DNA from: an uncultured Eubacteriales bacterium
GTDB taxonomy: Bacteria; Bacillota; Clostridia; Oscillospirales; Oscillospiraceae
Length of the DNA: 36,863 nt
Direction: 5' to 3'
Assembly: GCA_900316205.1 (NCBI GenBank)
Contig: ONBX01000020.1
Location: forward strand, 1 to 36,863
The translations under genes were made by a program, and so were the position numbers. The notes beneath the pieces are model-generated. The model saw nothing but the letters and a program-made list of their open reading frames with translations. It was not told the DNA's origin and ran no database searches. Below, one piece after another: positions 21,317 to 33,705 of this stretch; the stretch's first letter is position 1; each line of letters begins with the position of its first letter.

Positions 21317-21402
21317 GCCGGTGTGGTGGAATGGTAGACACCAGGGACTTAAAATCCCTTGCGGGCAACCGCGTACCGGTTCGAGTCCGGTCACCGGCAC
21401 CA
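21317..21402 (+). tRNA. tRNA-Leu, anticodon UAA
   Basis: Acceptor GCCGGTG (21317-21323) pairs with CACCGGC (21392-21398), then discriminator A and an encoded CCA. The anticodon loop CTTAAAA between AGGGA and TCCCT gives UAA, reading UUA leucine codons. The variable arm is long (TGCGGGCAACCGCG), as expected for leucine tRNA, and the T-arm is CCGGTTCGAGTCCGG. Its CCA end lies inside the following terminator stem. Confidence 0.97.
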
Positions 21403-21438
21403 AAAGAAGCACCCCCATCCGGGGGTGCTTCTTTTGGT
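21399..21438 (+). terminator. Terminator that includes the tRNA CCA end
   Basis: An 18-bp perfect stem: 21399-21416 (starting at the tRNA discriminator base, ACCAAAAGAAGCACCCCC) with 21421-21438, and loop ATCC. The U-rich side CTTCTTTT pairs with AAAAGAAG. Weaker pairing continues back through the acceptor and T-arm (21376-21398) with 21439-21464. Confidence 0.85.
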
Positions 21439-21870
21439 ACCGATGACCCCGACCTCGAATCCGGCTCCGGCGACGGCACAGCCTGAAGGGCTGGGCCTAG
21501 TCCCCGAAGGGGATTCGAGTCCGGTCACCATCCGGGGGTGCTTCTTTTGGTACCGATGATCCCGACCTCGAATCCGGCCCCGGCGACGGCACAGCCCAAA
21601 GGGCTGGGCCTAGTGCCCGAAGGGGATTCGAGTCCGGTCACCTTCCTTTTGGGATGCCTCTTTTTGCTATCAGTGATCCCGACCTCGAATCCGGCCCCGG
21701 CGACGGCACAGCCCGAAGGGCTGCGCCCAGTCCCCGAAGGGGATTCGAGTCCGGTCACCATCCGGGGGTGCTTCTTTTGGTACCGATGATCCCGACCTCG
21801 GATCCGGCCCCGGCGAAGGCACAGCCCGAAGGGCTGGGCCTGGTCCCCGTAGGGGATTCGAGTCCTTTCC
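21420..21870. repeat. Tandem array of tRNA-3'-end-like units (~115 bp, 4 copies)
   Basis: Four units with spacing 113, 117 and 113 bases, judged by GGATTCGAG at 21511, 21624, 21741 and 21854. Each unit contains a half-terminator (GGGGGTGCTTCTTTTGGTAC, changed in unit 3), CTCGAATCCGGCCCCGG, hairpin CAGCCCGAAGGGCTG, and an end ATTCGAGTCCGGTCACC. The last matches 16 bases of the tRNA-Leu T-arm and acceptor. The final unit is truncated after GAGTCC. Reading frames through it are not genes. Confidence 0.85.
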
Positions 21871-21924: not shown

Positions 21925-21952
21925 TGAACCTTTTTGCCTTTTTTCGCGACTA
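21925..21952 (+). promoter_or_regulatory. Candidate ECF autoregulatory promoter
   Basis: TGAACC (21925-21930), 16 bases, CGACTA (21947-21952), 48 bases before the sigma gene ATG. The -35 side (TGAACCTTTTTGCC) resembles the stronger sites at 23964 and 33609 (TGAAACCTTTTGGCC). The match is imperfect. Confidence 0.4.
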
Positions 21953-22000
21953 AGTAGGTGAAACCGGTTTTATGACAGAAACAGACAGGAGGTGATGTCC

Positions 22001-23278
22001 ATGCCGGAATTTGAAGAACTGCTGCAGGCGGAGCTGCCCGCTCTGGAGCGCTTTGTGAAGTTTCGCATCGGCAGCGCCCGGGACGCGGAGGACGTGCTGC
22101 AGGAGATCTGCCTCGCCGCCTGGCGGAATTACGGGAGTCTGCGGGATCAAAGCTCCTTCAAGCCCTGGCTGCTGGGCATCGCCCGGAATAAGTGCAAGGA
22201 CTATTTCCGGGAGCAGGCCAGACGCATGGAGCTCCCCCTGGAGGAGCTGAACGAGGCGGTGCTTGCCGTGGGGCTCCGGGGCCGCACGATCAAAAGCGCC
22301 GTGCGGGACACCCTGGAGCAGCTGGGAAATACGGATCAGCAGATCCTGTACCTCGCCTATTTCCGGGACCTGCCCCAGGCGGAGATCGCAGAGCGGCTGC
22401 ACCTCCCCCTTGGCACGGTGAAGAGCCGTCTGCACAAGGCCCGCTCCCGTTTCAAGGAGCGCTGGCCCTATCGGGAGAAAGGAGAAACGAACATGAAAAC
22501 CTTGCCGGAATATCTGCCGGAATACACGATCACAGAGTCTGAGCTGCCCCTCTTCCCGGTCCGCTGGGAGGAGACGATGGGCTGGTTTGTGGTGCCGAAG
22601 CCGGGAGAAACGTGCTCCTGGGCCATGTACGACTTCCCGGAGCGCCGGCGCACCGAGCAGTGCGACATGGAAGTTCTGGGCCGGGCGGAGGTCCACGGCA
22701 TCCAGGGGGTGGAGATCCGCGCCGTGGAGTATGCGCCCTCAGACTGCAGCCGTATCGGAGATGCGGACAAGACCGAGCGCCGCTTCGTCGCCCAGCTCAC
22801 CGAGACCCATTGCCGCATCCTTGCCGAAAGCCATGTGGAGGACGGCGTCCGCAAGCTCTATACCTTCCTGGACGGCGGCGACTTTCTGGACAACTGGGGC
22901 TTCGGGGAGGACAATTGCGGCAACGAGGTCCGGATCGCGCCACGGGGCGATATCCGCCGGGAGGGCAGCGCGGTGACCGCCGCGGACAAGCCCTTCCTGC
23001 TGGACGTGGTAGGCCGTTACACCGTGGAGATCGGCGGCAGGCGCTATGACACCATCTGCGTCATGGATATCGAGACTTACGACGGCGGCGTGGCCACCGA
23101 GCAGTTTCTGGACAAGGAGGGCCGCACCGTCCTCTGGCGCCGCTTCAACCGGGACAACTGGGCCATGGATCGCTACGGCCGCCCCTGGAGCGAGCTTCTG
23201 CCGGAAAACGAGCGCATCACCATAAACGGAGCGACTTACGTCCACTGGTACGACTGCATCACCGACCATATTTTGTGA
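22001..23278 (+). CDS. ECF-type sigma factor fused to a C-terminal domain
   Basis: A 425-residue protein. Residues ~10-75 are sigma region 2 (ARDAEDVLQEICLAAWRNYG, FKPWLLGIARNKCKDYFREQ) and ~105-155 are sigma region 4 (FRDLPQAEIAERLHLPLGTV, KSRLHKARSRF), so it should direct RNA polymerase to alternative promoters. Residues ~165-425 form an uncharacterised, mainly beta-rich domain starting MKTLPEYLPEY, with FPVRWEETMGWFVVPKPGE, YDTICVMDIETYDGG and EQFLDKEGRTVLWRRFNRD. No membrane segment or anti-sigma gene follows, so the C-domain may be the controller. Start at 22001 behind AGGAGGTGA; an in-frame GTG at 21992 overlaps that site. A strong internal start is described separately. Confidence 0.9.
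   Translation: MPEFEELLQAELPALERFVKFRIGSARDAEDVLQEICLAAWRNYGSLRDQSSFKPWLLGIARNKCKDYFREQARRMELPLEELNEAVLAVGLRGRTIKSAVRDTLEQLGNTDQQILYLAYFRDLPQAEIAERLHLPLGTVKSRLHKARSRFKERWPYREKGETNMKTLPEYLPEYTITESELPLFPVRWEETMGWFVVPKPGETCSWAMYDFPERRRTEQCDMEVLGRAEVHGIQGVEIRAVEYAPSDCSRIGDADKTERRFVAQLTETHCRILAESHVEDGVRKLYTFLDGGDFLDNWGFGEDNCGNEVRIAPRGDIRREGSAVTAADKPFLLDVVGRYTVEIGGRRYDTICVMDIETYDGGVATEQFLDKEGRTVLWRRFNRDNWAMDRYGRPWSELLPENERITINGATYVHWYDCITDHIL
22478..22495 (+). promoter_or_regulatory. Strong internal ribosome binding site and ATG
   Basis: AAAGGAG (22478-22484) is followed eight bases later by an in-frame ATG (22493) at the exact junction of the sigma part and the C-domain. Translation here would give a separate C-domain of about 261 residues. 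This looks like a fusion of two once-separate genes that kept the second gene's start site. Confidence 0.65.
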
Positions 23279-23290
23279 GCTGTCCGGCTG

Positions 23291-23875
23291 TAGGGGCGGT
23301 TGCTCGTCCGTGAACGGAGCTGAGCCACAAAGCCTTCCCCGCGCACGGGGAAGGTGCCCCAGTGCGCACACTGGGGCGGATGAGGTCCTTTTGCCGGACC
23401 ACGGGGAGACCTCGCTGCGCTCGGGGACCTCATCAGTCAGCTGCGCTGACAGCTTCCCCTTGCGAGGGGAAGCCAGAGCCGCGTATCAAAGCTTTCCCCG
23501 CGCCTCCCCGCAGCGGACGACGGATGAGGTGTTGCCCTGTCTTCCCGAGCAGAGCGAAGCCATGGCAGTGCGGAACGCTGTGGGGCGGAACGACCCCTCC
23601 GTCATCCGGCGGGCGTAACACGCTGGATGACACCTCCCCTTGCGCAGGGGAGGTGTTCGGGCTGTCGATGGCGCCAGCCCCTATGGCGAAGACGGGAGCG
23701 CCGGCGCTTGATGCCGTTCCTGCTCTCGTCTCGCAGGGGCCGCCCCTCTCGCGCCGCCCGTAGAGATCACCGCCCCGGCGGCTCTTGGCTCCCCCTCCGG
23801 GGGAGCTGTCAAGCGGCGTGTCACGCTCCGCCGCTTGACTGAGGGGGGTCCCGTCGTAGGGGCGATCTGCGGTCA
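23291..23875. repeat. Mosaic of dispersed palindromic repeats
   Basis: About 680 bases (23279-23963) without a supportable gene. Pieces of at least three repeat types are visible: GTAGGGGCG at 23291 and 23856, CTTCCCC/GGGGAAG blocks with GTCAGCTGCGCTGACA (about 23435), CACCTCCCC...GGGGAGGTG (23629-23654), and AAGCGGCGTGTCACGCTCCGCCGCTT (23810-23837). Candidate open frames here are repeat-derived. Confidence 0.65.
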
Positions 23876-23963
23876 CCTTCTTCTCTTCTTCGCGCAGGGC
23901 AATGCTCCCCTCGCGCCGTCCCATGCCGCCCTTTTGCCGTCCTCGGGACGGCTTTTCCTTTTT

Positions 23964-23992
23964 TGAAACCTTTTGGCCCTCTCAAACGTTAT
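23964..23992 (+). promoter_or_regulatory. ECF sigma promoter, operon of unknowns
   Basis: TGAAAC (23964-23969), 17 bases, CGTTAT (23987-23992), the form used by many Firmicute ECF factors (TGAAAC with CGT). It shares 21 identical bases with 33609-33629. The first gene starts 126 bases downstream. Confidence 0.65.
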
Positions 23993-24041
23993 TCTGTCGG
24001 AGAGAATGGCCGGAAAGCTCCCGTTAATGCCCGGGTTTTTC

Positions 24042-24070
24042 TTTACGGACAAAAGCACTCATGTTATACT
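24042..24070 (+). promoter_or_regulatory. Second promoter of the six-gene operon
   Basis: TTTACG (24042-24047), 17 bases, TATACT (24065-24070), 48 bases before the ATG. It is a housekeeping-type promoter placed downstream of the ECF-type one. Confidence 0.55.
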
Positions 24071-24118
24071 GAACAGGAAAGAGAATCACATCATATATCC
24101 GCCGCGAAAGGACACACC

Positions 24119-25519
24119 ATGACAAAAACGCAATTTCGTCACGATCTGCGCCGGGGCCTGGGCAGCTGTCCGCTGGAGCTGGAGCGCTGCACCGATGTGG
24201 AGGACTACCGGGAGGATCTGCTCTGGGGCCTGGAGCACGCTCTGGCCTATGACGCCCAGTGCGAGGGCACGCGGGCGATCTACTATTATGACATGCTCTG
24301 GCTCTTTGACGACTGGACGGACTTTCACGCTCTCATCGCCGCCGGCGCGAAACGCAATCTCAAGGATCGGGGCTGGCGCTTTTTCCACTTTGCGGAGCTG
24401 CTGGCCCTGATGGCCGGGGACGCTTACGCCCCCGCCCGGGAGACGCTGGAGGAGCTTTACGCCTTGCTGCTGGGCGCCATTTTCCGCGGTCACCCCTCCC
24501 AAAACGGCATCTGGCCCGCGATGGACAATTTCAGCCGCGTGTGCGTGTCTCTGCTCACAAACGCCCTGCAGGCCCAGGCGGAGCGGGAGGCCTTTTATCT
24601 GCGCGTTCTCGCTGACTACGGCAGGATCCTGGCGCGAAAGCCGGATCTGGGCGGACATGCGGAGGACGAGTGGTTTGACTCTGTGGCGGAGGACACCCTC
24701 GGTGCCGACCGGGTGCGGGAGCTGCTGCGGGAGGCCGGGGACGATCCCGATATCGCCCGGTATCTGGAAAACCGCCGCCGTCTGCAGGCGAGCCGGGAGG
24801 CCTATCAGGCCCAGGCGCGGCAGCAGGCGGAGGCGGAGAGCGCCCAGAGCATCTACCGCAAGCTCCGGGATGGAGCCGTCCCCGGGAAAGACCTTCCCCT
24901 CTTCCTGCTGCGCCGTATGGAGCAGCAGGGCCTTGAAGAGGTCTCGCGCCTTGCGCGGCTCTACGCGGCAGAGGAAAAGGAGGATCTGCGCCATGCGATC
25001 CTGCGCCTCTTCCGAACGGAAGTCTGCATTTCCACCTTTGACGACGCCGGGATCTCTCGCCTGCTTTTGGACGCGGAGAGCGAAAACCGCCCCCTTCGGG
25101 AGGAGGCGCTGCGGGTGCTGCCGGAGCTGCGGGCCCCGCAGGTGCGGGACTATGCCCTCTCCCGCCTCGAGCGCCGGAAGAAGGATGTGGACGCGCTCTA
25201 TATGCTGCTCACCAATTTCCGCCCCGGGGACGGTGAACGCCTGATCCCGCTGGTAAAAGCCGTCTCTCTCGATGAAAACCGCGGCGCCTGGCACGGCGTT
25301 TTCAGTGCGGTGCGGGAGCTGATCCACCGGGATCCGGCGGCGGACCGGGAGCTCTCCGGGACGCTGCTGCCCTATATGCTGCGGGAGGGCTATTGCTCCT
25401 GCTGCCGGCTCTATCTGCTGGAGCTGATGGAGCCCCGCGGTCTGCTGATGCCTGAGCTGCGGGAGGAATGCCGCCGGGACTGCTATCTGGAGATCCGGGA
25501 ATTTGCAGAGGGACTGTAA
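24119..25519 (+). CDS. Uncharacterised alpha-helical repeat protein
   Basis: A 466-residue soluble protein, first gene of the six-gene unit. It is nearly all helix. Aromatic-rich N-terminal helices (AIYYYDMLWLFDDWTDFHAL) lead to a charged helix around residues 215-245 (RRRLQASREAYQAQARQQAE) and a C-terminal half of paired helices ending in leucines (LREEALRVLPELRAPQVRDY, ALSRLERRKKDVDALYML), like HEAT/ARM-type repeats. No catalytic motif, signal peptide or membrane span is seen. The ATG at 24119 follows GAAAGGACAC; longer frames run through the promoters. Such scaffolds usually bind proteins; no function can be assigned. Confidence 0.75.
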   Translation: MTKTQFRHDLRRGLGSCPLELERCTDVEDYREDLLWGLEHALAYDAQCEGTRAIYYYDMLWLFDDWTDFHALIAAGAKRNLKDRGWRFFHFAELLALMAGDAYAPARETLEELYALLLGAIFRGHPSQNGIWPAMDNFSRVCVSLLTNALQAQAEREAFYLRVLADYGRILARKPDLGGHAEDEWFDSVAEDTLGADRVRELLREAGDDPDIARYLENRRRLQASREAYQAQARQQAEAESAQSIYRKLRDGAVPGKDLPLFLLRRMEQQGLEEVSRLARLYAAEEKEDLRHAILRLFRTEVCISTFDDAGISRLLLDAESENRPLREEALRVLPELRAPQVRDYALSRLERRKKDVDALYMLLTNFRPGDGERLIPLVKAVSLDENRGAWHGVFSAVRELIHRDPAADRELSGTLLPYMLREGYCSCCRLYLLELMEPRGLLMPELREECRRDCYLEIREFAEGL

Positions 25520-25543
25520 GGAGAAAAAAAGGAGGTCGTTTCC

Positions 25544-25924
25544 ATGAATCTCATTCAGACGCAAAGGGATATTCGGCGCTTCCTGGATCAGGTCAATTCG
25601 CTGCACGACGGGTATCTGCTCTCTGCGCAGTTTGAAAAATCAGGCATTTCACGAGGAAACGGCCTGACCCTTGACCCGAGCAAAACCGTGCTCCGTCTTC
25701 GTTATCTTGTCACAAGCATCTGCGATGCAGAAGTAGAGATCGAATTCGTAGGCGTGCGGGAGTGGCAGATCCGGGAAACTCAATGGAATGAGATCCTTGA
25801 CTCCGCGGTCTCTTTCTTGGATGACGGTTTCGTTGTCTGGACGGACGATGAATCCACTGACCCGAAAATCCGTTCCGGGTGTTCCTATGTGATCGCCAGA
25901 ACGATGAAGTGGAGAATTCTCTGA
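25544..25924 (+). CDS. Small uncharacterised protein (FHD...MKWR family)
   Basis: A 126-residue protein that begins 24 bases after the previous stop behind a perfect AGGAGG. It has the layout of a common unnamed Firmicute family: an early SLHDGYLLSAQFE motif, a central paired strand VLRLRYLVTS and VEIEFVGVREWQI, then FVVWTDDES and a final YVIARTMKWRIL. The fold is likely a compact beta sandwich. Similar genes are often scattered among immunity-like clusters, which is a recollection of genomic style rather than proof. Base composition is lower in GC than its neighbours, suggesting separate acquisition. Confidence 0.7.
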   Translation: MNLIQTQRDIRRFLDQVNSLHDGYLLSAQFEKSGISRGNGLTLDPSKTVLRLRYLVTSICDAEVEIEFVGVREWQIRETQWNEILDSAVSFLDDGFVVWTDDESTDPKIRSGCSYVIARTMKWRIL

Positions 25925-25946
25925 GTAAGGAGAAGAGGGGCTTTCT

Positions 25947-26471
25947 ATGGATTTCAAAGTTTTCAGCCTGCTCTTTGGCGCGTTCAGCAGCCTGATTGCC
26001 TGGGTCTTTCTGCACCTTAGCTTTCCAGAGGATGCGTGGCTGGCTCTTCCGGTGGGGATCAGCATCACGATTGTGCTGAGTGCGATCCTGCAGATCCTCC
26101 TGCATTTTGAGGAAAAGCGCTATCGGCAGGCAGAGGCACGCTTTACCCAAGCGCCTGTTTTCAAGTGTGAAGGAGCAGTTTATTCAGGCGCAGAAACGCG
26201 CGGAGCACGGCTCTATCTGTTTGAGGACGGTCTTACCATATTGGGCCTGGACAAAAAGCCCGTGCTGGAATATTCGATACCGATGTCCGGGCTCCGGGAG
26301 ATCACCTGCGAAAATACACGCAACGGCGCCATTCTCCATCTCTACGGTTTTGAAGAGGGCGAGGAGATCCACTTTTTCAGCCGTGAGGGGGATCAAGCCG
26401 CAGGCAGGATCATGGATGCCATGGAACATGCAGAAGATACGTCTTTTTCGCTGGATGAGGTGGGACCATGA
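25947..26471 (+). CDS. Membrane protein with PH-like cytoplasmic domain
   Basis: A 174-residue protein. Two membrane helices (VFSLLFGAFSSLIAWVFLHL; WLALPVGISITIVLSAILQI) form a hairpin, followed by a basic junction (EEKRYRQAEARF) and a ~115-residue cytoplasmic domain of strands and one C-terminal helix: GARLYLFEDGLTILGLDKKP, YSIPMSGLREITC, AILHLYGFEEGEEIHFFSRE, RIMDAMEHA. This resembles bacterial PH/YcxB-like domains. The stop overlaps the next start (ATGA), implying coupled translation. GAGGGG precedes the ATG. Role unknown; it would place the operon's product at the membrane. Confidence 0.7.
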   Translation: MDFKVFSLLFGAFSSLIAWVFLHLSFPEDAWLALPVGISITIVLSAILQILLHFEEKRYRQAEARFTQAPVFKCEGAVYSGAETRGARLYLFEDGLTILGLDKKPVLEYSIPMSGLREITCENTRNGAILHLYGFEEGEEIHFFSREGDQAAGRIMDAMEHAEDTSFSLDEVGP

Positions 26472-27424
26472 CGGTTGAGCGAGCCTATTATCACAAGCTG
26501 ATGCTGGAGGTCGGGCTGACCGAGAGCTTTGATGCGGAGCTGGACGAGCTTCTGGAGCAGGAAGACCCGCTGAGCGAGCTGACCCTGGCCCTCTCCACCT
26601 GCGGCGGGGATCGAAATGAACAGATCCATATTTTGAACGACTATATCCTCTCCGTCCCGAAGGAGCAGATCGACTCCGATGCCGTGTTTTCCCTGGTGGC
26701 GGAGGATTTCCGGGCTCGCTATGAGCAAAGCCCGGAGGCTTTGGAGCAGCTCACACGCAAAATGGGCTCGGTGGCCTGGCTCTCCGGCTGGTGGATGGAG
26801 GATCCCTGGAACGCCATGTATCTGATGAGCGACTGGTATGACGATATTGAAGCTCGCCTTCTTACACGGGAAGCCTTTCTGGAAAGCTTCCGAAAGCTGC
26901 TTTCATCCGGAGAGGTATTCGACCCCCTGGATGCGCAGCGCCGAAAGCTGCAGCAAAACACGCTTCCCGCGCAGATCCGGTCCTTCTTTTTCAAAAGGAG
27001 AAGGCGGAAGATCCGCCGTGAGCCCGGAGACGGTCTCGCCAATGCCCGTCCCAATGCGCTTTTTCTCCCCTGCCGGGTCCGCTGGGGCACGGCCTGGTTT
27101 GAGTTTCAGTACTGCAAAACCAAAGGGCCCCTCAAAAAGCTCCTGGATCACCCGCAGCAGCATTGGATGTCGGATTCCCTGATCGTATATCTGGACGATC
27201 AGGAGCGGCTGCTGGACGCCTACCTTCCCTATCTGGAGCATCCGGAATCGCCGGACGGCAGCAGCAGATTCTGCTATTATGGGATCAACTATTACACCAA
27301 GGAGCGCACGGCACAAATGCTGGGACAGATCCGGGCCGACCGGCCGGAGGAATGGGAGGTCCTGCTCCCCTGGCTGGAAAAGGCCGCGTCCAAATACAAC
27401 GGATTCTATTTTCTGGGGATCTGA
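26468..27424 (+). CDS. Uncharacterised 318-residue protein
   Basis: A soluble, mostly helical protein with no family recognised. The N-terminal half is acidic (FDAELDELLEQEDPLSELTL, LNDYILSVPKEQIDSDAVF). A strongly basic patch FFFKRRRRKIRREPGD sits near residue 180, then a beta-containing stretch LFLPCRVRWGTAWFEFQYCK. The C-terminus is tryptophan-rich (PEEWEVLLPWLEKAASKYNG). The basic cluster could bind nucleic acid or acidic partners. Start overlaps the membrane protein gene by four bases. A GAAAGGAGG site for the next gene begins only a few bases after its stop. Confidence 0.7.
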   Translation: MTVERAYYHKLMLEVGLTESFDAELDELLEQEDPLSELTLALSTCGGDRNEQIHILNDYILSVPKEQIDSDAVFSLVAEDFRARYEQSPEALEQLTRKMGSVAWLSGWWMEDPWNAMYLMSDWYDDIEARLLTREAFLESFRKLLSSGEVFDPLDAQRRKLQQNTLPAQIRSFFFKRRRRKIRREPGDGLANARPNALFLPCRVRWGTAWFEFQYCKTKGPLKKLLDHPQQHWMSDSLIVYLDDQERLLDAYLPYLEHPESPDGSSRFCYYGINYYTKERTAQMLGQIRADRPEEWEVLLPWLEKAASKYNGFYFLGI

Positions 27425-27441
27425 CGAAAGGAGGTATCATC

Positions 27442-28728
27442 ATGGGCTGCTGGGGCATGGGGCTCACCTGTAGCGACGATTATTGCGAGGTCTATGAGGA
27501 CTTCATGGAGCGCTACGACGAAGGAGAGGAAGTTTCCGCCATTCGGGAGGCGATCCTTGCCGAGCATACCGCAGAGTTTGATCCGGAGAATCCCATCCTC
27601 CACGATATGTATTTCGCGCTGGCCAAGGCGGGCTGGATCTGCTGCGAGCAGTCGCCGGAGATCCTGGAGCGGGTGCGCAGCATCATCGAAAGCGGGGCGA
27701 ACCTGGATTTCTACCGGAAGCTGGGCGCCAATGAGCGGGACCTTGCCGAGAGGAAAAAGAAGCTGGCTGCGTTTTGGACTTCGCTGCAGCGTCCAAGAGC
27801 GAAGCCCCGAAAGCGGCACCCCGCGCCGAAGGAGCGGGAGCTGCCCGATCTGGACCCGGGGAGTGTTCTGGCCTATAAGGCGCCGGAGGGACAGCGGGTG
27901 CTGATCGTGCTGGACCGCATCGGCTGGCCCGGATTCTTTCAAGATCAGGTCTTTTGCTGCGTGCTGCAAAGAAGCTTTGAGAAAAAGGAGCTCTCCACCC
28001 TGGATCCGCTCCCGGAAAAGCTGGGGCTGATCAGCTCCTTCTACGCAAAGGAATTTCTTGCTCCTTCCGCCTTCCGGAACATCGGGACTGTCCCGGTTCC
28101 CGAGGGGCTCTACGCCAAGCTCTACCCTGCCGGCTGGAACGGCTGGAGGCTGCTTTTGGAGGGATACAAAAAAGACTTTCAGAAAGATTTCACCCCGGCG
28201 GAGGCCCTGGATTTGAGGCAGCTCCTGGCCGGAGAGACGCCGAAGGGGATGAGCCTGTACTGTAGAGTGAGCAAGGTCAGGTTTGGTAACGTGGGCGTGG
28301 GGCAGGTCTATATCAAGGATGAGACACCGGAAAAGAAGGACACCGCTCCGGTCAACGGCTTTGATACCGAGAAGATCGACCGGCTGCTCGCCCGGGTAGG
28401 CGTGGACGAGGACGAGGCCTTCTACCGGGAGCTGGATGCTGTGATCTACAGCCTCGGCCGGGACGCGGAAAATCCCAGGGAGCTGCGCTATGCCTATGGA
28501 CTTTTGATGGAGCTTTCCCAGCACCCGAAGTCCTCCGTGCGGATGGCGGTGCTCCAGGCTTTGGGCGTCATGGGGGTGCTGCACAAGAAGGCGCCCCTCC
28601 TCGAATCGGAGGTCAAGGATCGCTTCTATGCCCAGTGGCGGCAGGGAGATCCGGTGGAGCGGGCCATTTTGAAGGACGTGATGGAGGATCTGCGGCGGGG
28701 CCGGGGCTGGCAATTCGTTTTGCCGTAG
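27442..28728 (+). CDS. MGCWGMG-type protein with helical C-terminal region
   Basis: A 428-residue protein behind a very strong AAAGGAGG. The start MGCWGMGLTCSDDYCEVYED resembles DUF4259-like and related families that open with MGxWGxG and an acidic helix (seen in small Firmicute proteins of unknown use). After a basic linker (RPRAKPRKRHPAPKER, about 118-133) comes a beta-rich middle region with GSVLAYKAPEGQRVLIVLDR, then from about residue 320 helices resembling HEAT units (YAYGLLMELSQHPKSSVRMA, VLQALGVMGVLHKKAPLL). It is thus a likely three-part protein. No catalytic motif is recognised. Confidence 0.7.
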   Translation: MGCWGMGLTCSDDYCEVYEDFMERYDEGEEVSAIREAILAEHTAEFDPENPILHDMYFALAKAGWICCEQSPEILERVRSIIESGANLDFYRKLGANERDLAERKKKLAAFWTSLQRPRAKPRKRHPAPKERELPDLDPGSVLAYKAPEGQRVLIVLDRIGWPGFFQDQVFCCVLQRSFEKKELSTLDPLPEKLGLISSFYAKEFLAPSAFRNIGTVPVPEGLYAKLYPAGWNGWRLLLEGYKKDFQKDFTPAEALDLRQLLAGETPKGMSLYCRVSKVRFGNVGVGQVYIKDETPEKKDTAPVNGFDTEKIDRLLARVGVDEDEAFYRELDAVIYSLGRDAENPRELRYAYGLLMELSQHPKSSVRMAVLQALGVMGVLHKKAPLLESEVKDRFYAQWRQGDPVERAILKDVMEDLRRGRGWQFVLP

Positions 28729-28736
28729 GATGAGCT

Positions 28737-29396
28737 ATGGAGAGAAAACAACTTGTAAATCGGGAGCCGATCCCCTATGACGCGCCTCTGCCAGAGCTGG
28801 AAGAGCTGCTGCGGGACAAGGAGATGCAGCGCTATTGCCTCGCCTGTGAGGCCCTGTCCTGGCGAACCGATGAAGAATCCTTTCGTCTTCTCGCCGCGCA
28901 GCTGGATGTGGCGGACCGCTGGCGCCGGCTGTATGCTTTCCGTGTGATTTTTCGCAGCCCCTATTCAGTGAGTCTTTCGTCCTATGCGGTGCAGCAGCTT
29001 CTGTCCGACGATCCTTCCTTTGTGTTGGCTGCGCTGGAGATCATTGAGGAACACAGGCTCCCCTGCCCGGAGCAGGCCATAAAAGCGGCGGTTGCGGAGC
29101 ACTACGAGCTGCTTCACGATCAAGGGAAGCTGCTGTTTCGTCTGGAGGCCAGCGGGGAGAACTATCGCTATCTGACGGACTTGTTTCATCGGGAAGGGCC
29201 CTGTATTCGGCAAGAGATCGTGGCGGATATCCTCCTGGACCACTACGAGGATTCCCGCCCCGCGGAGCTCTATACGCTGCTGGCCGGTTCCCGCCATGCC
29301 AGGCAGCGGGTGAAGGCCGCGCTGCTTGCCAAAAGGCGGGGGCTGGATCCCTCCGCCCTGCGGGAAGACCCGGACGGCCATGTGCGCAAAGCCTGA
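28737..29396 (+). CDS. HEAT-repeat-like protein
   Basis: A 219-residue helical protein that ends the operon, eight bases after the previous stop. Repeated helix pairs are visible: YCLACEALSWRTDEESFRLL, AAQLDVADRWRRLYAFRVIF, VQQLLSDDPSFVLAALEIIE, LYTLLAGSRHARQRVKAALL, ending LREDPDGHVRKA, a pattern typical of HEAT/PBS-lyase-like repeats. No enzyme motif is present. The ribosome site (AGGATGAG) is weak, so translation is probably coupled to the upstream gene. It shares its helical-repeat style with the first and fifth genes of this unit. Confidence 0.7.
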   Translation: MERKQLVNREPIPYDAPLPELEELLRDKEMQRYCLACEALSWRTDEESFRLLAAQLDVADRWRRLYAFRVIFRSPYSVSLSSYAVQQLLSDDPSFVLAALEIIEEHRLPCPEQAIKAAVAEHYELLHDQGKLLFRLEASGENYRYLTDLFHREGPCIRQEIVADILLDHYEDSRPAELYTLLAGSRHARQRVKAALLAKRRGLDPSALREDPDGHVRKA

Positions 29397-29437
29397 CGCT
29401 GATGTGGGGATCAAGCAAAAAAAGCCCCGCTTCCCCC

Positions 29438-29466
29438 TTCAAATGCGCCGATCCATATGCTATAAT
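29438..29466 (+). promoter_or_regulatory. Promoter of the 64-residue membrane protein
   Basis: TTCAAA (29438-29443), 17-base spacer, perfect TATAAT (29461-29466), 32 bases before the ATG. Confidence 0.75.
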
Positions 29467-29498
29467 AGCTTTATCAAATCATTCGGGAGGACTGAACC

Positions 29499-29693
29499 AT
29501 GAAAGAAAAGCTGAAAAACGCCTGGCTGAAGGTTGGCAAGTTCCTGCTCTGGGCCCTGCTCGCCGCCCTCTGCTGCTTTTTGACCTATATGGTCTTTGTC
29601 CACCGCAAGCTCATCATCGCCGCCATCAAGGGCGAAAAACTGCCCGAGCCCAAGGACGGCAGCCGCTGCCCCTGGTACCGCAAAAAGAAATAA
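29499..29693 (+). CDS. 64-residue single-pass membrane protein
   Basis: A small basic protein: MKEKLKNAWLKVGKFLL leads into one membrane helix (WALLAALCCFLTYMVFV), followed by a cationic tail ending in RCPWYRKKK. No domain is known. It has its own promoter and a GGGAGG site, and a strong terminator follows directly, so it forms a one-gene unit. Confidence 0.7.
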   Translation: MKEKLKNAWLKVGKFLLWALLAALCCFLTYMVFVHRKLIIAAIKGEKLPEPKDGSRCPWYRKKK

Positions 29694-29705
29694 GCGCCAT
29701 GCAAG

Positions 29706-29755
29706 ACCCGCCCGAAGCCGCAAGCCTCGGGCGGGTTTTCCTGTTTTTTTCTCGT
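29706..29755 (+). terminator. Terminator after the 64-residue gene
   Basis: ACCCGCCCGA (29706-29715) pairs with TCGGGCGGGT (29727-29736), followed by TTTCC and a run of seven T. Confidence 0.88.
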
Positions 29756-29768
29756 TTTTTGTCCGCAC

Positions 29769-29797
29769 TTGGCAGAACGGACGAGCCGTGCTATAAT
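29769..29797 (+). promoter_or_regulatory. Promoter of first beta-lactamase-fold gene
   Basis: TTGGCA (29769-29774), 17-base spacer ending GCC..GTGC, perfect TATAAT (29792-29797). It is nearly the same as the promoter of the paralogue at 30966. Confidence 0.8.
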
Positions 29798-29825
29798 GGA
29801 CAAAATTCGACCAAACGAGGACGCC

Positions 29826-30956
29826 ATGATGAAAGCTGCGCTGCGCCGGATGCTGCTTCTGCTGCTGATCCTGCTGCTTCTGCCCCACCCCGCCGCTCTG
29901 GCGGAGGAGCCGGACGAACAGGAGAGCATCCTGGACGAGGACTATCTGAACCAATGGACCGAGACCTATCTGCGGGAAAACGGCCTGGACAACAGCTGGC
30001 AGGACTTCTCCGTGGGCTTCTGCTACACCGCCACCGGGGACTGCTGGTACTATAACCCCGACCAGTTCATGTACTCGGCCAGTCTCTACAAGGTCCCGGT
30101 ATCCATGCTGGCGGAGGAGAAAGTGGCCGCGGGAGAGCTCAGCAAGGACGACACCAGCATGGGCTCCCCCCTCTCTTACCTGATATTCAGCGCCCTGGTA
30201 TATTCCAGCAATGAAGCCGGCCACGCGCTGGTGCGCTTGTTGGGCGGCACCGACTGGGGCAAGTGCAGCGATCAGGCCACCCGCTACACCGATCTGGACG
30301 AGAGCTATTTTACCCCGGATTTTTACGGCAGCAGCTTCTATACCGCCCGTTTCATGACCCAGGTGATGCGCACCCTCTGCCAGGGGCGGGAGGACCGCTT
30401 CCCCTATGTGATCGAATGTATGCTCCAGGCCCAGCCTGATGGCTATATGAACCTGACCTTGAAGGACCGCTACCCCATCGCCCAGAAATACGGAGCCTAT
30501 CAGGAGGACAACGGACCGAACAACAATCATGCCGCCGCCATCATCTTTACCCCCAACCCCATCGTGGTGGTGGTGATGACCCGCAACGTCGGCATGTTCC
30601 AGGATCACATCGCCGCTTTCGGCGGCTTCCTGGCCGACTATGCCCTGGAGCTGGACGAAAAGCTGGCAGAGCGGGAGGCGACCGCCGCGACGCCGGAGCC
30701 CAGCCCGGAGCCCACGCCGGAACCCACGGCGGAGCCCACAGCCGAGCCCACAGCCGAGCCAAGTCCCGAGCCCACGCCCCTGCCCACCCCGGAGGCAAGC
30801 GAAGCGCCCGCTCCCGAGCCCAGCCCCCTGGTCGAACAGCAGGCGGCCTCGCCCCTGGCGCTCTACGGCATCCCCGTGCTGCTGGCTCTGGCGGCGCTTT
30901 CCCTTCTGATCCACGGCGTCCGCCGGCCCCGAAAGAAAGTCCGCAGCCGCCGCTGA
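29826..30956 (+). CDS. Membrane-anchored beta-lactamase-fold serine hydrolase, copy 1
   Basis: A 376-residue exported protein of the class A beta-lactamase-like (serine hydrolase) fold. A signal peptide (RRMLLLLLILLLLPHPAALA) precedes the domain. The catalytic SxxK is SLYK (Ser86-Lys89 counting from 29826), an SxN-like motif is SSNEAGH (127-133), and the KTG position reads KYG (221-223). A (T/S)PEP-rich linker (about 291-340) leads to one C-terminal helix (LYGIPVLLALAALSLLI) and a basic stop-transfer tail, so the catalytic domain faces outward. More likely a cell-wall or peptide hydrolase than a resistance enzyme. Two adjacent ATGs (29826, 29829) are possible starts. Confidence 0.82.
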   Translation: MMKAALRRMLLLLLILLLLPHPAALAEEPDEQESILDEDYLNQWTETYLRENGLDNSWQDFSVGFCYTATGDCWYYNPDQFMYSASLYKVPVSMLAEEKVAAGELSKDDTSMGSPLSYLIFSALVYSSNEAGHALVRLLGGTDWGKCSDQATRYTDLDESYFTPDFYGSSFYTARFMTQVMRTLCQGREDRFPYVIECMLQAQPDGYMNLTLKDRYPIAQKYGAYQEDNGPNNNHAAAIIFTPNPIVVVVMTRNVGMFQDHIAAFGGFLADYALELDEKLAEREATAATPEPSPEPTPEPTAEPTAEPTAEPSPEPTPLPTPEASEAPAPEPSPLVEQQAASPLALYGIPVLLALAALSLLIHGVRRPRKKVRSRR

Positions 30957-30965
30957 AAAGACCTG

Positions 30966-30994
30966 TTGGCAAAGACGGCAAAAGCTGCTATAAT
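30966..30994 (+). promoter_or_regulatory. Promoter of second beta-lactamase-fold gene
   Basis: TTGGCA (30966-30971), 17-base spacer, TATAAT (30989-30994); same boxes and spacing as at 29769-29797, evidence that promoter and gene were duplicated together. Confidence 0.8.
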
Positions 30995-31034
30995 GCAACG
31001 CAAAGCAAGAAAAAACGACAGCGAGGACACTCCC

Positions 31035-32144
31035 ATGAAACATACTCTGCACAAGCTCTTCTCCCTGCTGCTGTGCCTGGTTTTGCTGCTCTCCCTGGCC
31101 CCCATGGCCCTGGCGGAGGAGGAAAGCCTCCTGGACGAGGCGGCTCTGGACCGATGGATCCAGGACTATCTGCAGCAGCACGGCATCGGCGGCGGCAACC
31201 AGCTCTTCTCCGTGGGCTTCTGCTACACCGCCACCGGGGACGCCTGGTACTATAACGGCGACACCTTTATGTATTCGGCCAGCATGTACAAGGTCCCGGT
31301 GGCCATGCTGCTGGCGGAAAAGGAGGCCTCCGGCCTCATCAACCAGGACACGGACCTGGGCGGCGGCACCCTGCGCTACCTGGAATCCACAGCGCTGACC
31401 TTCTCCAACAACGACAGCGGCCACGCCATGCTGAACTACCTGGGAGAGGACAACGGCGGCAAGGCCAGCAGGATGTGCATGAAGTACGCCTCTCTGGACC
31501 AGGCCTATTACGACCAGGACTTCTTTGATTACAGCTATTACTCCGCCCGCTTCATCACCCAGGTGATGCAGACCCTCTGCGCCGGCGGCGAGGAGCGCTT
31601 CCCCCATGTGATCGAGAATCTGCTGATCGCCCAGCCGGACAGCTACCTGAATCTGAGCCTCATGGGCAAATATCAGGTGGCCCAGAAATACGGCGCCTTC
31701 CAGGAGCGAAACGGCAACTCCAACAACCACATCACCGCCATCGTCTACACACCGAACCCCATCATCGTCACGGTGATGACCCGGAACGTGGACGATTTCC
31801 AGCAGCGCATGGCGGACATCGGCGAATATCTGGCCAATTACGCCCTGGAGCTGGACGGCAAGCTCCAGCAGCGGCAGCAGGCCCAGGCCCAGGCGGAAGC
31901 CCAGGCTGCAGCCGAGGCCCAGGCCCAGGCGGAGCAGGAGGCCCAGTCCTCCTCCCGGATCACCTTCACCGGCGGCGCGCAGATCGGGGGCGGAAGAGCC
32001 CGGCTCATGCCCGCCTTCTACATCCTCTGGGCTGCCATTGCAGCCTTCGGCGTTCTGGTCCTGCTCCACGCGGTTCAGTATCGCAAAGGCAAGGCCAAAG
32101 TGACAAGCACCAGGAGCAGGCCCGGGCGGCGCAGGCGGCACTAA
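31035..32144 (+). CDS. Membrane-anchored beta-lactamase-fold serine hydrolase, copy 2
   Basis: A 369-residue paralogue of the preceding gene, clearly alike through FSVGFCYTATGD...WYYN and MYSAS(L/M)YKVPV. Catalytic motifs are SMYK (Ser83-Lys86), SNNDSGH (124-130) and KYG (218-220). The signal peptide is MKHTLHKLFSLLLCLVLLLS and the C-terminal helix is FYILWAAIAAFGVLVLLHAV. The linker differs completely: instead of PEP repeats it is a Gln/Ala-rich coiled-coil-like stretch (QRQQAQAQAEAQAAAEAQAQ). This implies linker replacement after duplication. Start follows GCGAGGACAC. Ends just before a split terminator. Confidence 0.82.
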   Translation: MKHTLHKLFSLLLCLVLLLSLAPMALAEEESLLDEAALDRWIQDYLQQHGIGGGNQLFSVGFCYTATGDAWYYNGDTFMYSASMYKVPVAMLLAEKEASGLINQDTDLGGGTLRYLESTALTFSNNDSGHAMLNYLGEDNGGKASRMCMKYASLDQAYYDQDFFDYSYYSARFITQVMQTLCAGGEERFPHVIENLLIAQPDSYLNLSLMGKYQVAQKYGAFQERNGNSNNHITAIVYTPNPIIVTVMTRNVDDFQQRMADIGEYLANYALELDGKLQQRQQAQAQAEAQAAAEAQAQAEQEAQSSSRITFTGGAQIGGGRARLMPAFYILWAAIAAFGVLVLLHAVQYRKGKAKVTSTRSRPGRRRRH

Positions 32145-32156
32145 GCACGCAAAAGG

Positions 32157-32370
32157 GGCTGTCTCAAAACGCGATAAGGCGGAAATAGCGCCGTAGGGGC
32201 GGCTATCAGCCGTCCGGCAGAGCCGGGTTGAAACAGCACAAAAATGTGAGGCGAATTCGTACTTTCCTGCGAATTCGCCTCACATTTCTTGCTTTTAGGC
32301 ATATTACCGCGCGGGCGGCTGATAGCCGCCCCTACGTTCCTTTACGGGTCTTTTGAGACAGCCGCTTTTT
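32157..32370. terminator. Terminator split by a repeat element
   Basis: GGCTGTCTCAAAA (32157-32169) pairs perfectly with TTTTGAGACAGCC (32351-32363), then GC and five T (32366-32370). On the other strand AAAAGG gives a U-tract, so it serves both the + hydrolase and the minus ilvE gene. The arms are 181 bases apart because a repeat occupies the loop. Confidence 0.75.
32193..32335. repeat. Double-hairpin intergenic repeat, copy 5, inside a terminator loop
   Basis: Outer arms GTAGGGGCGGCTATCAGCC (32193 on) and GGCTGATAGCCGCCCCTAC (to 32335); inner perfect 18-bp repeat AAATGTGAGGCGAATTCG (32242-32259) with 32270-32287. It lies between the two arms of the terminator at 32157-32363. Confidence 0.85.
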
Positions 32371-32385
32371 GTTGGATCGGAAGGC

Positions 32386-33453
32386 TCAGCAGACGGGCAC
32401 GATCCAGCCGAAGGGATCCTCCGCCTTGCCCCACTGGATGGCGGTGATGGTGTCGTAGAGCTTCTGGGTCAGCTCGCCGATCTTGAAACCGCCGATCACA
32501 TGGACCTTGTCCTCAAAGGAGATCTCGCCGATGGGGGAGATGACGGCGGCGGTGCCGGTGCCCCAGGCCTCCTCCAGGGTGCCGTTGTCGGCAGCCTCGA
32601 TGAGCTCGTCGATGGAGATGTCCCGCTCCTCCACCTCATAGCCCCAGTGGCGCAGGATCTGCAGGGCGGTGCGGCGGGTGACGCCGGGCAGCACGGTGCC
32701 CTTTTCCAGGGACGGAGTGATGATCTTGCCGTTGATCTTGAACATGACGTTCATGGCGCCCACTTCTTCGATGTACTTCTGCTCCACACCGTCCAGCCAC
32801 AGCACCTGGCTGAAGCCCTTCTTGCCCGCCTCATGGCTGGCATGGAGGGAAGCAGCGTAGTTGCCGCCGCACTTGGTAAAGCCGGTGCCGCCGCGGACCG
32901 CGCGGACTTCCCGGGCCTCCACCGCGATCTTCACGGGGTTCAGGCCTTCGGGATAATAAGCGCCGACGGGGCAGGTCAGGATGCAGAAGAGATAGTTCTT
33001 GGCCACGTGCACGCCCAGCTGGGGATCGATCGCGATGGCGAAGGGGCGGATATAGAGACTGGTGTTGGGCTCGGCAGGCACCCAGTCCTTGTCCACTTCC
33101 ACCAGCGCCTTCAGGGCCTGCAGGAAATCCTCCTCCGGGACATGGGGGACGCAGAGCTTGACGCCGGAATTGTTGAAGCGGATGATGTTGTCCATGGGGC
33201 GGAAGAGCTGAATGCTGCCCTTCTCGGTGCGGTAGGCCTTCATGCCCTCAAAGATCTCCTGGGCATAGTGGAAGACCATGGCGGAGGGCTCTATCTCGAT
33301 GGTGCCGTAGGGCACGATGCGGGGATCATACCAGCCCTTGCCCTCGGTGTAGTTCATCATGAACATATGGTCGGAAAAATAGGTGCCGAAGGGAATGCCC
33401 TTCATGTCAGGCTTCTTCCGGGGATTCGTCGTACGGGTGATTGCAATATTCAT
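32386..33453 (-). CDS. ilvE: Branched-chain amino acid aminotransferase
   Basis: A 355-residue class IV PLP aminotransferase that interconverts branched-chain amino acids and their 2-oxo acids with glutamate/2-oxoglutarate. Landmarks: GTYFSDHMFMMNYTEGKGWY, FHYAQEIFEGMKAYRTEKGS, the PLP-lysine region GGTGFTKCGGNYAASLHASH, WLDGVEQKYIEEVGAMNVMF and VLPGVTRRTALQILR, GTGTAAVISPIGEI. The length is typical of the long (type 2) bacterial form. GGAGG lies ten bases upstream of the ATG, with a TTGCAT-17-TATAAT promoter. No leader peptide, T-box or attenuator is visible in the ~45-base leader. Confidence 0.95.
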   Translation of the reverse strand: MNIAITRTTNPRKKPDMKGIPFGTYFSDHMFMMNYTEGKGWYDPRIVPYGTIEIEPSAMVFHYAQEIFEGMKAYRTEKGSIQLFRPMDNIIRFNNSGVKLCVPHVPEEDFLQALKALVEVDKDWVPAEPNTSLYIRPFAIAIDPQLGVHVAKNYLFCILTCPVGAYYPEGLNPVKIAVEAREVRAVRGGTGFTKCGGNYAASLHASHEAGKKGFSQVLWLDGVEQKYIEEVGAMNVMFKINGKIITPSLEKGTVLPGVTRRTALQILRHWGYEVEERDISIDELIEAADNGTLEEAWGTGTAAVISPIGEISFEDKVHVIGGFKIGELTQKLYDTITAIQWGKAEDPFGWIVPVC

Positions 33454-33503
33454 AGAGCCTTAACCTCCATTGTTTTTGTCGGGCCGGGGTCATTTGTATG
33501 TTC

Positions 33504-33532
33504 ATTATACGTTTGTTCTGAAATAAATGCAA
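33504..33532 (-). promoter_or_regulatory. Promoter of ilvE
   Basis: On the minus strand TTGCAT (33532-33527), 17 bases, perfect TATAAT (33509-33504). Confidence 0.75.
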
Positions 33533-33608
33533 GCCCTCCCGCCTGAATTTGTTGGCAGCTTCCAATGTCTTCCAATCAGGTATTTTTTTTACAAAAACGC
33601 GGGAGCGC

Positions 33609-33637
33609 TGAAACCTTTTGGCCCTCTCATCCGTTAT
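33609..33637 (+). promoter_or_regulatory. ECF sigma promoter upstream of the TraB-like gene
   Basis: TGAAAC (33609-33614), 17 bases, CGTTAT (33632-33637). The first 21 bases are identical to the site at 23964 before the six-gene operon. The gene starts 170 bases downstream. Confidence 0.65.
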
Positions 33638-33676: not shown

Positions 33677-33705
33677 TAGACAGATCTTGAAAATAATGCT
33701 AAAAT
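33677..33705 (+). promoter_or_regulatory. Second promoter of the TraB-like gene
   Basis: TAGACA (33677-33682), 17 bases, TAAAAT (33700-33705), a housekeeping-type site downstream of the ECF-type site, the same tandem arrangement as at 23964/24042. Confidence 0.55.

Follow-up and report, generated by a model that had tools for sequence, protein, structure and literature searches.

The window analysed here is a stretch of 36,863 nucleotides (contig ONBX01000020.1 of assembly GCA_900316205.1, C58 in our numbering) from the genome of an uncultured Eubacteriales bacterium (2.78 Mb in 88 contigs, handle G000), whose nearest named relatives are the Clostridia metagenome-assembled genomes L215 and L216. 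It contains a gene for a sigma factor of the extracytoplasmic function (ECF) type fused to a C-terminal domain, followed by two nearly identical ECF promoter-like sites, one upstream of an operon and the other upstream of the gene for a lipoprotein with a TraB-type domain. The initial annotation joined these elements into one circuit, in which the fused sigma factor would direct both sites and its own promoter. Our genome comparisons suggest that there are probably two separate ECF circuits: the regulon of another ECF factor, encoded elsewhere in the genome and named SigC40 here, and a self-contained loop in which the fused sigma factor would serve its own gene. The features on which the argument rests are the following.

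21925-21952, + strand: predicted private promoter of the fused sigma gene, TGAACCTTT-N13-CGACTA (equal to TGAACC-N16-CGACTA), conserved 5' of orthologues
21959-21972, no strand assigned: operator-like palindrome TGAAACCGGTTTTA over the predicted transcription start, register mostly fixed, centre changing symmetrically
22001-23278, + strand: fused ECF sigma gene, 425 aa, with sigma domains 2 and 4 at about aa 1-155 (Pfam, NCBIfam) and a C-terminal domain
22478-22484, + strand: internal Shine-Dalgarno (SD) sequence AAAGGAG, 8 nt 5' of an in-frame ATG, at the end of sigma domain 4
22493-23278, + strand: predicted second product, the free C-terminal domain, 261 aa, from the internal ATG at 22493
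23936-23952, + strand: terminator-like hairpin in the interval between the fused sigma gene and the operon promoter, kept in genomes G021 and G044
23964-23992, + strand: predicted ECF promoter (SigC40 type) upstream of the operon, TGAAAC-N17-CGTTAT, conserved in G021 and G044
24042-24070, + strand: housekeeping-type promoter TTTACG-17-TATACT, 9 of 12 consensus bases, hexamers kept in G021 and G044
33609-33637, + strand: predicted ECF promoter (SigC40 type) upstream of the TraB lipoprotein gene, conserved in G021 and G044 and, one gene further upstream, in G036
33677-33705, + strand: housekeeping-type promoter TAGACA-17-TAAAAT, 10 of 12 consensus bases, hexamers kept in G021 and G044

The two strong sites, at 23964-23992 and 33609-33637, agree in 27 of 29 bases (21 identical, 2 differing, AA/TC, and 6 identical); their common form TGAAAC-N17-CGTTAT, the 21 identical bases and the housekeeping-type promoter 3' of each had been described in the initial annotation and were all recovered. 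With up to 3 mismatches, the 27-base pattern was found twice in the window and 0 times in 100 shuffles. The bare hexamers at the same tolerance gave 15 matches against 11.0 expected, which is not above chance; they are thus uninformative, and the argument depends on the extended match between the two sites and on a genome-wide search. In that search TGAAACCTTTT followed by CGT after 11 to 14 bases occurred at 11 sites, with a single spacing throughout, and the reversed pattern, used as control for the motifs, gave 0. The form TGAAACCTTTT-N12-CGTTAT with up to 3 mismatches returned 16 matches (10, 3, 2 and 1 with zero, one, two and three mismatches) against 4 control matches, the latter not split by mismatch number. 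All 15 sites with up to 2 mismatches end 25-173 nt 5' of a plausible gene start, as set by a simple rule of length and SD sequence. A search of this kind had been proposed in the initial annotation as a check on the motif.

One exact site (contig C40, positions 66382-66410) lies 40 nt 5' of the start codon of the ECF sigma gene at C40:66451-66945, which encodes SigC40. The exact motif, SigC40 and the fused sigma factor were each sought in a set of 80 genomes, that of the window included. Orthologues of SigC40 (72-100% identity, next matches at most 52%) were found in six of them (G000, G006, G021, G036, G040 and G044), and the exact motif was present in the same six and absent from the other 74, with 0 control matches, a co-occurrence uncorrected for relatedness among six genomes of one genus. 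A strong site stands upstream of SigC40 in 6/6 genomes (mismatches 0, 0, 0, 2, 1 and 1); for G006 and G036, where the start rule took a wrong frame, the sigma gene was positioned from the orthologue search. The best PDB match of SigC40, first among 22 PDB sequences ranked by similarity, is B. subtilis SigW (5wuq, E 1.8e-19), and the SigW -35 DNA in the solved complex reads ATTGAAACCTTT (as given in PMC6713349). The gene after SigC40 encodes a protein of 420-441 aa with one transmembrane segment, and its start overlaps the SigC40 stop by 4 nt in 4/4 genomes; this reading covers four of the six loci, the text pattern being unmatched in G006 and G036. The protein had no Pfam or PDB match, and from its position we infer a putative anti-sigma factor. 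Just 5' of the SigC40 promoter lies a short open reading frame with sigma region 2 only (L050 4461-4721, that is G000:C40:65960-66220), 46% identical to the SigC40 N-terminus, and a similar region-2 match lies near SigC40 in G044.

The fused sigma factor has another distribution. Full-length copies with at least 49% identity were found in 8/80 genomes (G000, G021, G044, G023, G047, G076, G077 and G078); G059 contained pieces of the gene on contig ends and one 30% match. The exact motif is missing in five of the eight, and the fused sigma factor was not found in three genomes that have the motif (G006, G036 and G040). The single circuit of the initial annotation, with the 22001 protein reading 23964, 33609 and its own promoter, draws on real proximity: the fused sigma gene ends 0.7 kb from the operon site, the arrangement is kept in G021 and G044, and the strong and private motifs have TGAA(A)CCTTT and CG in common. 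We nevertheless consider it very improbable. The strong motif occurs in the same genomes as SigC40, whose gene is itself preceded by an exact copy, and its presence conflicts with that of the fused sigma factor in both directions; the conserved motif upstream of the fused sigma gene has another -35, spacer and -10 and is elsewhere no commoner than its reversed controls; and the terminator-like hairpin at 23936-23952 lies between the fused sigma gene and the operon site (the scan for terminator patterns found 2 against 1.9 expected from shuffles, a count not above chance). What stood of that proposal is that the sites before the operon and the lipoprotein gene look like ECF-type promoters, of one regulon covering both, and that the 22001 gene has a site of autoregulatory type.

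ECF factors often overlap in specificity. SigC40 might thus be the main factor at the strong sites while the fused sigma factor, or the nearest SigC40 paralogue (52% identity), also uses some of them, and both the closeness of the -35 elements and the 28 Sigma70_r2 matches in the window's genome leave room for this. We regard such sharing as unlikely: five genomes with the fused sigma factor and without SigC40 have no exact strong site, and the paralogue has an upstream motif of its own, TGCAACC..CGTTTAT or CGTTAT, in G000, G021, G044, G036 and G040, which is a third ECF specificity in the same genome. The paralogue was also rejected as the cognate factor of the strong sites, on account of this TGCAACC motif and of relatives in G007, G034 and G047, genomes without an exact strong site.

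The 22001 protein matched PF04542 and PF08281/PF04545 above cut-offs, with domain 3 unmatched, which places it among ECF (group IV) factors. A weaker, autoregulatory-type site 5' of its gene had been proposed in the initial annotation; it was found at 21925-21952, and the upstream alignment of eight orthologues reads TGAACCTTT-N13-CG(T/A)CTA, followed by the palindrome. It is the sole exact match in the window's genome, where up to 2 mismatches gave 8 matches against 15 for the controls. We extended the comparison to 80 of 410 named relatives. The strict promoter form preceded the gene in 59 of these 80 loci and a looser form in 13; the other 8 comprise five with a one-base variant, recognised by eye (L227, L229, L260, L279 and L287), one with a strict site about 270 bp upstream (L250), one where none was recognised (L240) and one without upstream DNA (L254). 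Promoter and palindrome are also the same in L268, the locus of the cultured relative Acetatifactor muris DSM 23669. In an order-level set of 394 genomes, 46 fused sigma genes were found in 44 genomes, with a strict site 53-105 bp upstream in 37/46; eight of the remaining nine have a variant and the ninth is cut off. A site of autoregulatory type, with AAC/CGT-like elements, precedes the 45 readable genes, 37 in strict and 8 in variant form, the window's own -10 being CGA and not CGT.

Strict sites elsewhere in the 394 genomes numbered 21, against 21 reversed controls (a total summed by eye), and only 3 of the 21 lie in the 44 genomes with a fused sigma gene. Among the 21, those at L298 and L314 precede fragments of fused sigma genes, that at L311 precedes only a start resembling one (by eye), and that at L295 is cut off by a contig end. 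The exact site being unique in the window's genome and the counts elsewhere being at control level, the fused sigma gene is its own only recognisable target. These sequence patterns point to a private autoregulatory loop, in which use of the promoter is predicted. Within up to 6 kb no conserved neighbour was found, the commonest family occurring in 11/80 loci, some of them cut by contig ends (LacI genes were not sought), and the 22001 gene has no adjacent anti-sigma gene. In genome G327 (L300 and L301), two TGAACCTTT-N12-CGTCT sites have AGAGGGG downstream in common; they possibly belong to another ECF regulon.

The palindrome lies over the predicted transcription start. Its general form is TGAANNCGNNTTCA, from which the window's copy deviates at one outer position (TTTTA), and its centre is 13 nt 3' of the -10 hexamer in 74 of the 83 regions in which it was aligned (83 of 87 upstream regions, L240, L241, L250 and L287 being unmatched). 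Five copies entered under genome handles duplicated named loci in this set, and counting the 43 distinct 14-mers removes them. The pair at positions +-2 is Watson-Crick in 39/43 distinct 14-mers, of all four types, against 11.8 expected from column make-up; the centre was picked in each sequence for best symmetry, which inflates such counts, though most sequences have it in one register. A tree of the fused sigma factors (77 of 84 proteins, the set used for tree and residue-tracking analyses) gave at least 18 changes of the +-2 pair. Left C and right G changed jointly in an average of 6.9 out of 7 independent, well-supported pairs (median p 0.016); the T/A and A/T versions of pair 2 went in the same direction, with too few pairs for significance. 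An RNA hairpin was rejected as the cause of the symmetry: the two innermost pairs are fixed or covarying and yet would be too close to pair in one strand.

The form TGAANNCGNNTTCA resembles the consensus of LacI-family operators. The palindrome could accordingly be a cre-like or LacI-family operator for a global regulator such as CcpA, which would put the fused sigma factor under carbon control, and two genomes with two copies fit this: L220 and L227 of one assembly are one base apart, and both sites of G160 share the same centre. Such control is possible, though we do not favour it. The window's genome has one exact copy of the palindrome, and with up to 1 mismatch the search found a single further match, which is non-palindromic and without TGAACC in the preceding 120 bases; the centre covaries symmetrically; and in G325 the centre is AACGTT before one paralogue and ATCGAT before the other. 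A binder specific to this site is favoured over a global one by the symmetric drift and by the difference within G325, and the remaining two-copy pairs are neutral (the second copy in G082 has no palindrome). Whether the fused protein binds here itself was approached through its residues: none among the 77 proteins tracked the palindrome centre, and the best columns were scattered over the whole protein, with normalised mutual information peaking at 0.49 (pair 2) and 0.58 (pair 3). This looks like shared ancestry, and self-binding would be a mere possibility.

Where the sigma part ends, an SD-like string precedes an in-frame start in 77/84 loci. The codons of 83 of the 84 sequences were compared, one identical sequence being dropped. 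The junction Gly codon is GGA in 79/80 (the 80th is mis-mapped), whereas GGA makes up 4-37% at 18 other conserved Gly columns, and the start codon (n=83) is ATG in 79, GTG, TTG and ACG in 1 each and mis-mapped in 1; the single mis-mapped entry per column probably stems from the internal stops in L260 and L286. The mean energy of pairing to the 16S rRNA end was -12.1 kcal/mol at the internal start (81 sequences), -16.5 kcal/mol at the full-length start (81) and -3.8 kcal/mol at random codons (243). SD-like strings also precede the conserved Met M193, in 38/70 sequences; there they are probably spelled by the preceding W-E-E codons. The strings alone are thus weak, and the synonymous bias towards GGA is the main evidence. 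Alternatively, there is one product only, and the SD sequence and ATG either remain from a time when the two parts were separate genes or result from the K-G-E linker, which is conserved in the protein; coupled genes that became fused would leave a trace of this sort. We find this improbable, as the junction Gly codon is GGA in 79/80 against the much lower values at other Gly columns, and as two of the three replacements of the Met are GTG and TTG, which are likewise start codons. The fused gene probably yields the sigma fusion and a free C-terminal protein, and its likely origin is the fusion of two coupled genes with the start of the second one kept.

For the C-terminal domain there was no Pfam match at E 0.1 and no PADLOC match at E 0.01; among the NCBIfam matches listed (25 of 92 families) none lay beyond the sigma part, and the PDB gave nothing better than E 0.21, two TIM21 entries at E 0.21-0.23 being taken as chance. 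H232, C306, D291, D335, D350, D356 and D418 are invariant in the 77 sequences, and H270, C353, H415 and C419 are each changed or absent in one of them; as a guess, the conserved His, Cys and Asp residues might bind a metal or make up an active site. The C-terminal part had 3816 database matches. Of the best 120 relatives, 114 are fused to a sigma factor and 6 are short entries of 261-266 aa, on contigs of 863-1560 bases, so that truncation is possible.

What the sequences themselves show are the motifs, their distributions, the covariation and the conserved codons; from these, the two circuits would work as follows. SigC40, an unlinked SigW-like ECF factor, would drive an envelope-type regulon of about 15 promoters, including both strong sites and its own, and would be held by the adjoining single-segment anti-sigma-like protein; an envelope signal would release it and add ECF transcription to basal transcription at the operon and the TraB lipoprotein gene. 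Independently, the sigma part of the fused protein would read the private promoter before its own gene only, the palindrome over the start site would be a likely brake in most copies, bound by a dimer, and the internal ribosome-binding site would allow both the full sigma fusion and the free C-terminal domain to be made from one mRNA. A bolder version is a one-gene circuit, in which the sigma factor is joined to its only regulon product and the C-terminal domain, fused and free, reads the palindrome itself. We think this rather doubtful; if true, promoter, operator, activator, brake and output would lie within one gene, and the ribosome-binding site of a once separate gene would be under strong synonymous selection across many Clostridia.

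Besides the single genus behind the SigC40 co-occurrence, the choice of palindrome centres and the strings at M193, several observations weigh against two separate circuits of this kind. The genomes G006, G036 and G040 are 74, 83 and 87% complete, so that the absence of the fused sigma factor there is perhaps partly incompleteness, and the two related motifs may be cross-recognised. The sites at L297 and L299, among the 21 found elsewhere, lie before or beside distant ECF-like genes (24-30% identity); the private motif may therefore not be wholly private to the fused-sigma family, and the strict search misses degenerate targets. The third pair outward in the palindrome had no support on independent branches, L256, L282 and L337 have no palindrome, and the lack of a centre-tracking residue in the fused protein counts here as well.

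An extended consensus of the SigC40-type site, TGAAACCTTTTGGCCC-CTCA-CGTTATACAGACAGA, was obtained from 48 sites in the six genomes. The first genes that recur behind these sites are those for a membrane protein in five genomes (its G000 copy with a solute-binding domain) and, in three genomes each, gene 1 of the window operon and the genes for a CHAP/dockerin protein (domains as found in G000), a small lipoprotein-like protein and the TraB lipoprotein; in G036 the TraB lipoprotein gene also lies behind a site, but further downstream. An MBOAT acyltransferase is one G040 target, and in G000 the SigC40 genes are followed by a PIG-L-like gene. When SigC40 itself is set aside, 11/14 of the G000 first genes encode a protein with a hydrophobic segment in its first 40 residues or so. 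The SigC40 circuit is an ordinary ECF envelope-stress arrangement by its sequence features, with stress and the anti-sigma role as predicted parts. For the operon and the TraB lipoprotein, basal housekeeping expression plus an ECF boost is the natural reading. The window targets are as follows.

24119-25519, + strand: operon gene 1, 466 aa, no Pfam family, 39 homologues found
25544-25924, + strand: operon gene 2, no Pfam family
25947-26471, + strand: operon gene 3, no Pfam family, N-terminal hydrophobic stretch by eye
26468-27424, + strand: operon gene 4, no Pfam family
27442-28728, + strand: operon gene 5, HEAT-repeat match below threshold
28737-29396, + strand: operon gene 6, no Pfam family
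33807-36221, + strand: lipoprotein with C-terminal TraB/PrgY/GumN domain, 804 aa, PF01963, lipobox-like motif

The initial annotation spoke of a six-gene operon, which holds loosely: genes 1, 3 and 4 are present in the loci of both nearest relatives and gene 2 in one, and genes 5 and 6 were not found in the loci of either. In the G021 locus about 2 kb lie between genes 1 and 3. A defence role of the operon was rejected, as PADLOC gave no match. The PF01963 match of the 33807 lipoprotein is strong (E 1.9e-53, 182 bits against a cut-off of 26.8).

Elsewhere in the window, 29823-30956 and 31035-32144 are adjacent paralogues (52-56% identity) with the Beta-lactamase2 fold (PF13354) and repetitive C-terminal tails, perhaps secreted or anchored serine hydrolases. 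The interval between the fused sigma gene and the operon contains, at 23279-23900, a repeat-like stretch seen by eye (CCTTCCCCGCGCACGGGGAAGGTGCCC). Downstream of a tRNA-Leu (taa) at 21317-21402 come four tandem 113-bp units (21415-21865) that repeat a sequence like the 3' end of the tRNA.

That the nearest sigma factor is the cognate one was a natural but wrong inference here, and it was corrected by the genome-wide and cross-genome test. The fused sigma factor represents a family common in gut and rumen Clostridia, with a fused domain of no recognised fold and its own gene as only recognisable target. If confirmed, it would be a compact, natural, self-contained switch, and the function of its widespread C-terminal domain is directly testable. 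In the open-access literature, most subscription journals lying outside it, we found no paper that treats the family, describes a covarying operator at an ECF promoter or reports a start inside an ECF gene; the family may already carry an ECF group number for specialists. As of 2020, ECF consensus sequences had yet to be identified in C. difficile, according to the account in PMC7438776.

The SigW gene of B. subtilis is adjoined by that of the membrane anti-sigma factor RsiW. SigC40 resembles this system in its autoregulatory-type site, in the membrane protein in anti-sigma position and in the many targets with N-terminal hydrophobic segments. SigW is also its best solved relative and has the same -35 string, TGAAACCTTT (as reported in PMC6713349). 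SigC40 differs in its -10, CGTTAT(A), in a partner without Pfam or PDB match and in a narrow distribution, orthologues of at least 72% identity occurring in 6/80 genomes only. The 33807 lipoprotein is like the TraB/PrgY/GumN family in its C-terminal domain (PF01963) and unlike it in a fused lipoprotein N-terminal half of about 500 aa, for which there was no convincing family match.

About 55% of ECF factors are autoregulated, by the figure in PMC8103513. At least 26 ECF groups have extensions, 15 of them unstudied, and some accepted groups have no adjacent anti-sigma gene, as surveyed in PMC8999054. In ECF42, ECF56, ECF238 and others the C-terminal extension is thought to replace the anti-sigma factor, and it may likewise do so here; those extensions are described in that survey as SnoaL-like, TPR or Cys-rich, and that of the fused sigma factor, compared with them by description, matches no Pfam family and no PDB chain. 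The closest precedent is ECF41, described in PMC3426412 as having a large fused C-terminal domain, no anti-sigma gene, one private motif and a single detectable target. The fused sigma factor is alike in its fused domain, private motif and single target, without being an ECF41 member: it has no SnoaL-like extension match, no TGTCACA and no conserved neighbour. The ECF41 motif is TGTCACA-N16-CGTC and its target the neighbouring COE enzyme gene (PMC3426412), whereas the fused sigma factor has TGAACC as -35 and itself as predicted target. It further differs from ECF41 in the palindrome, in the internal start and in a C-terminal domain outside Pfam families.

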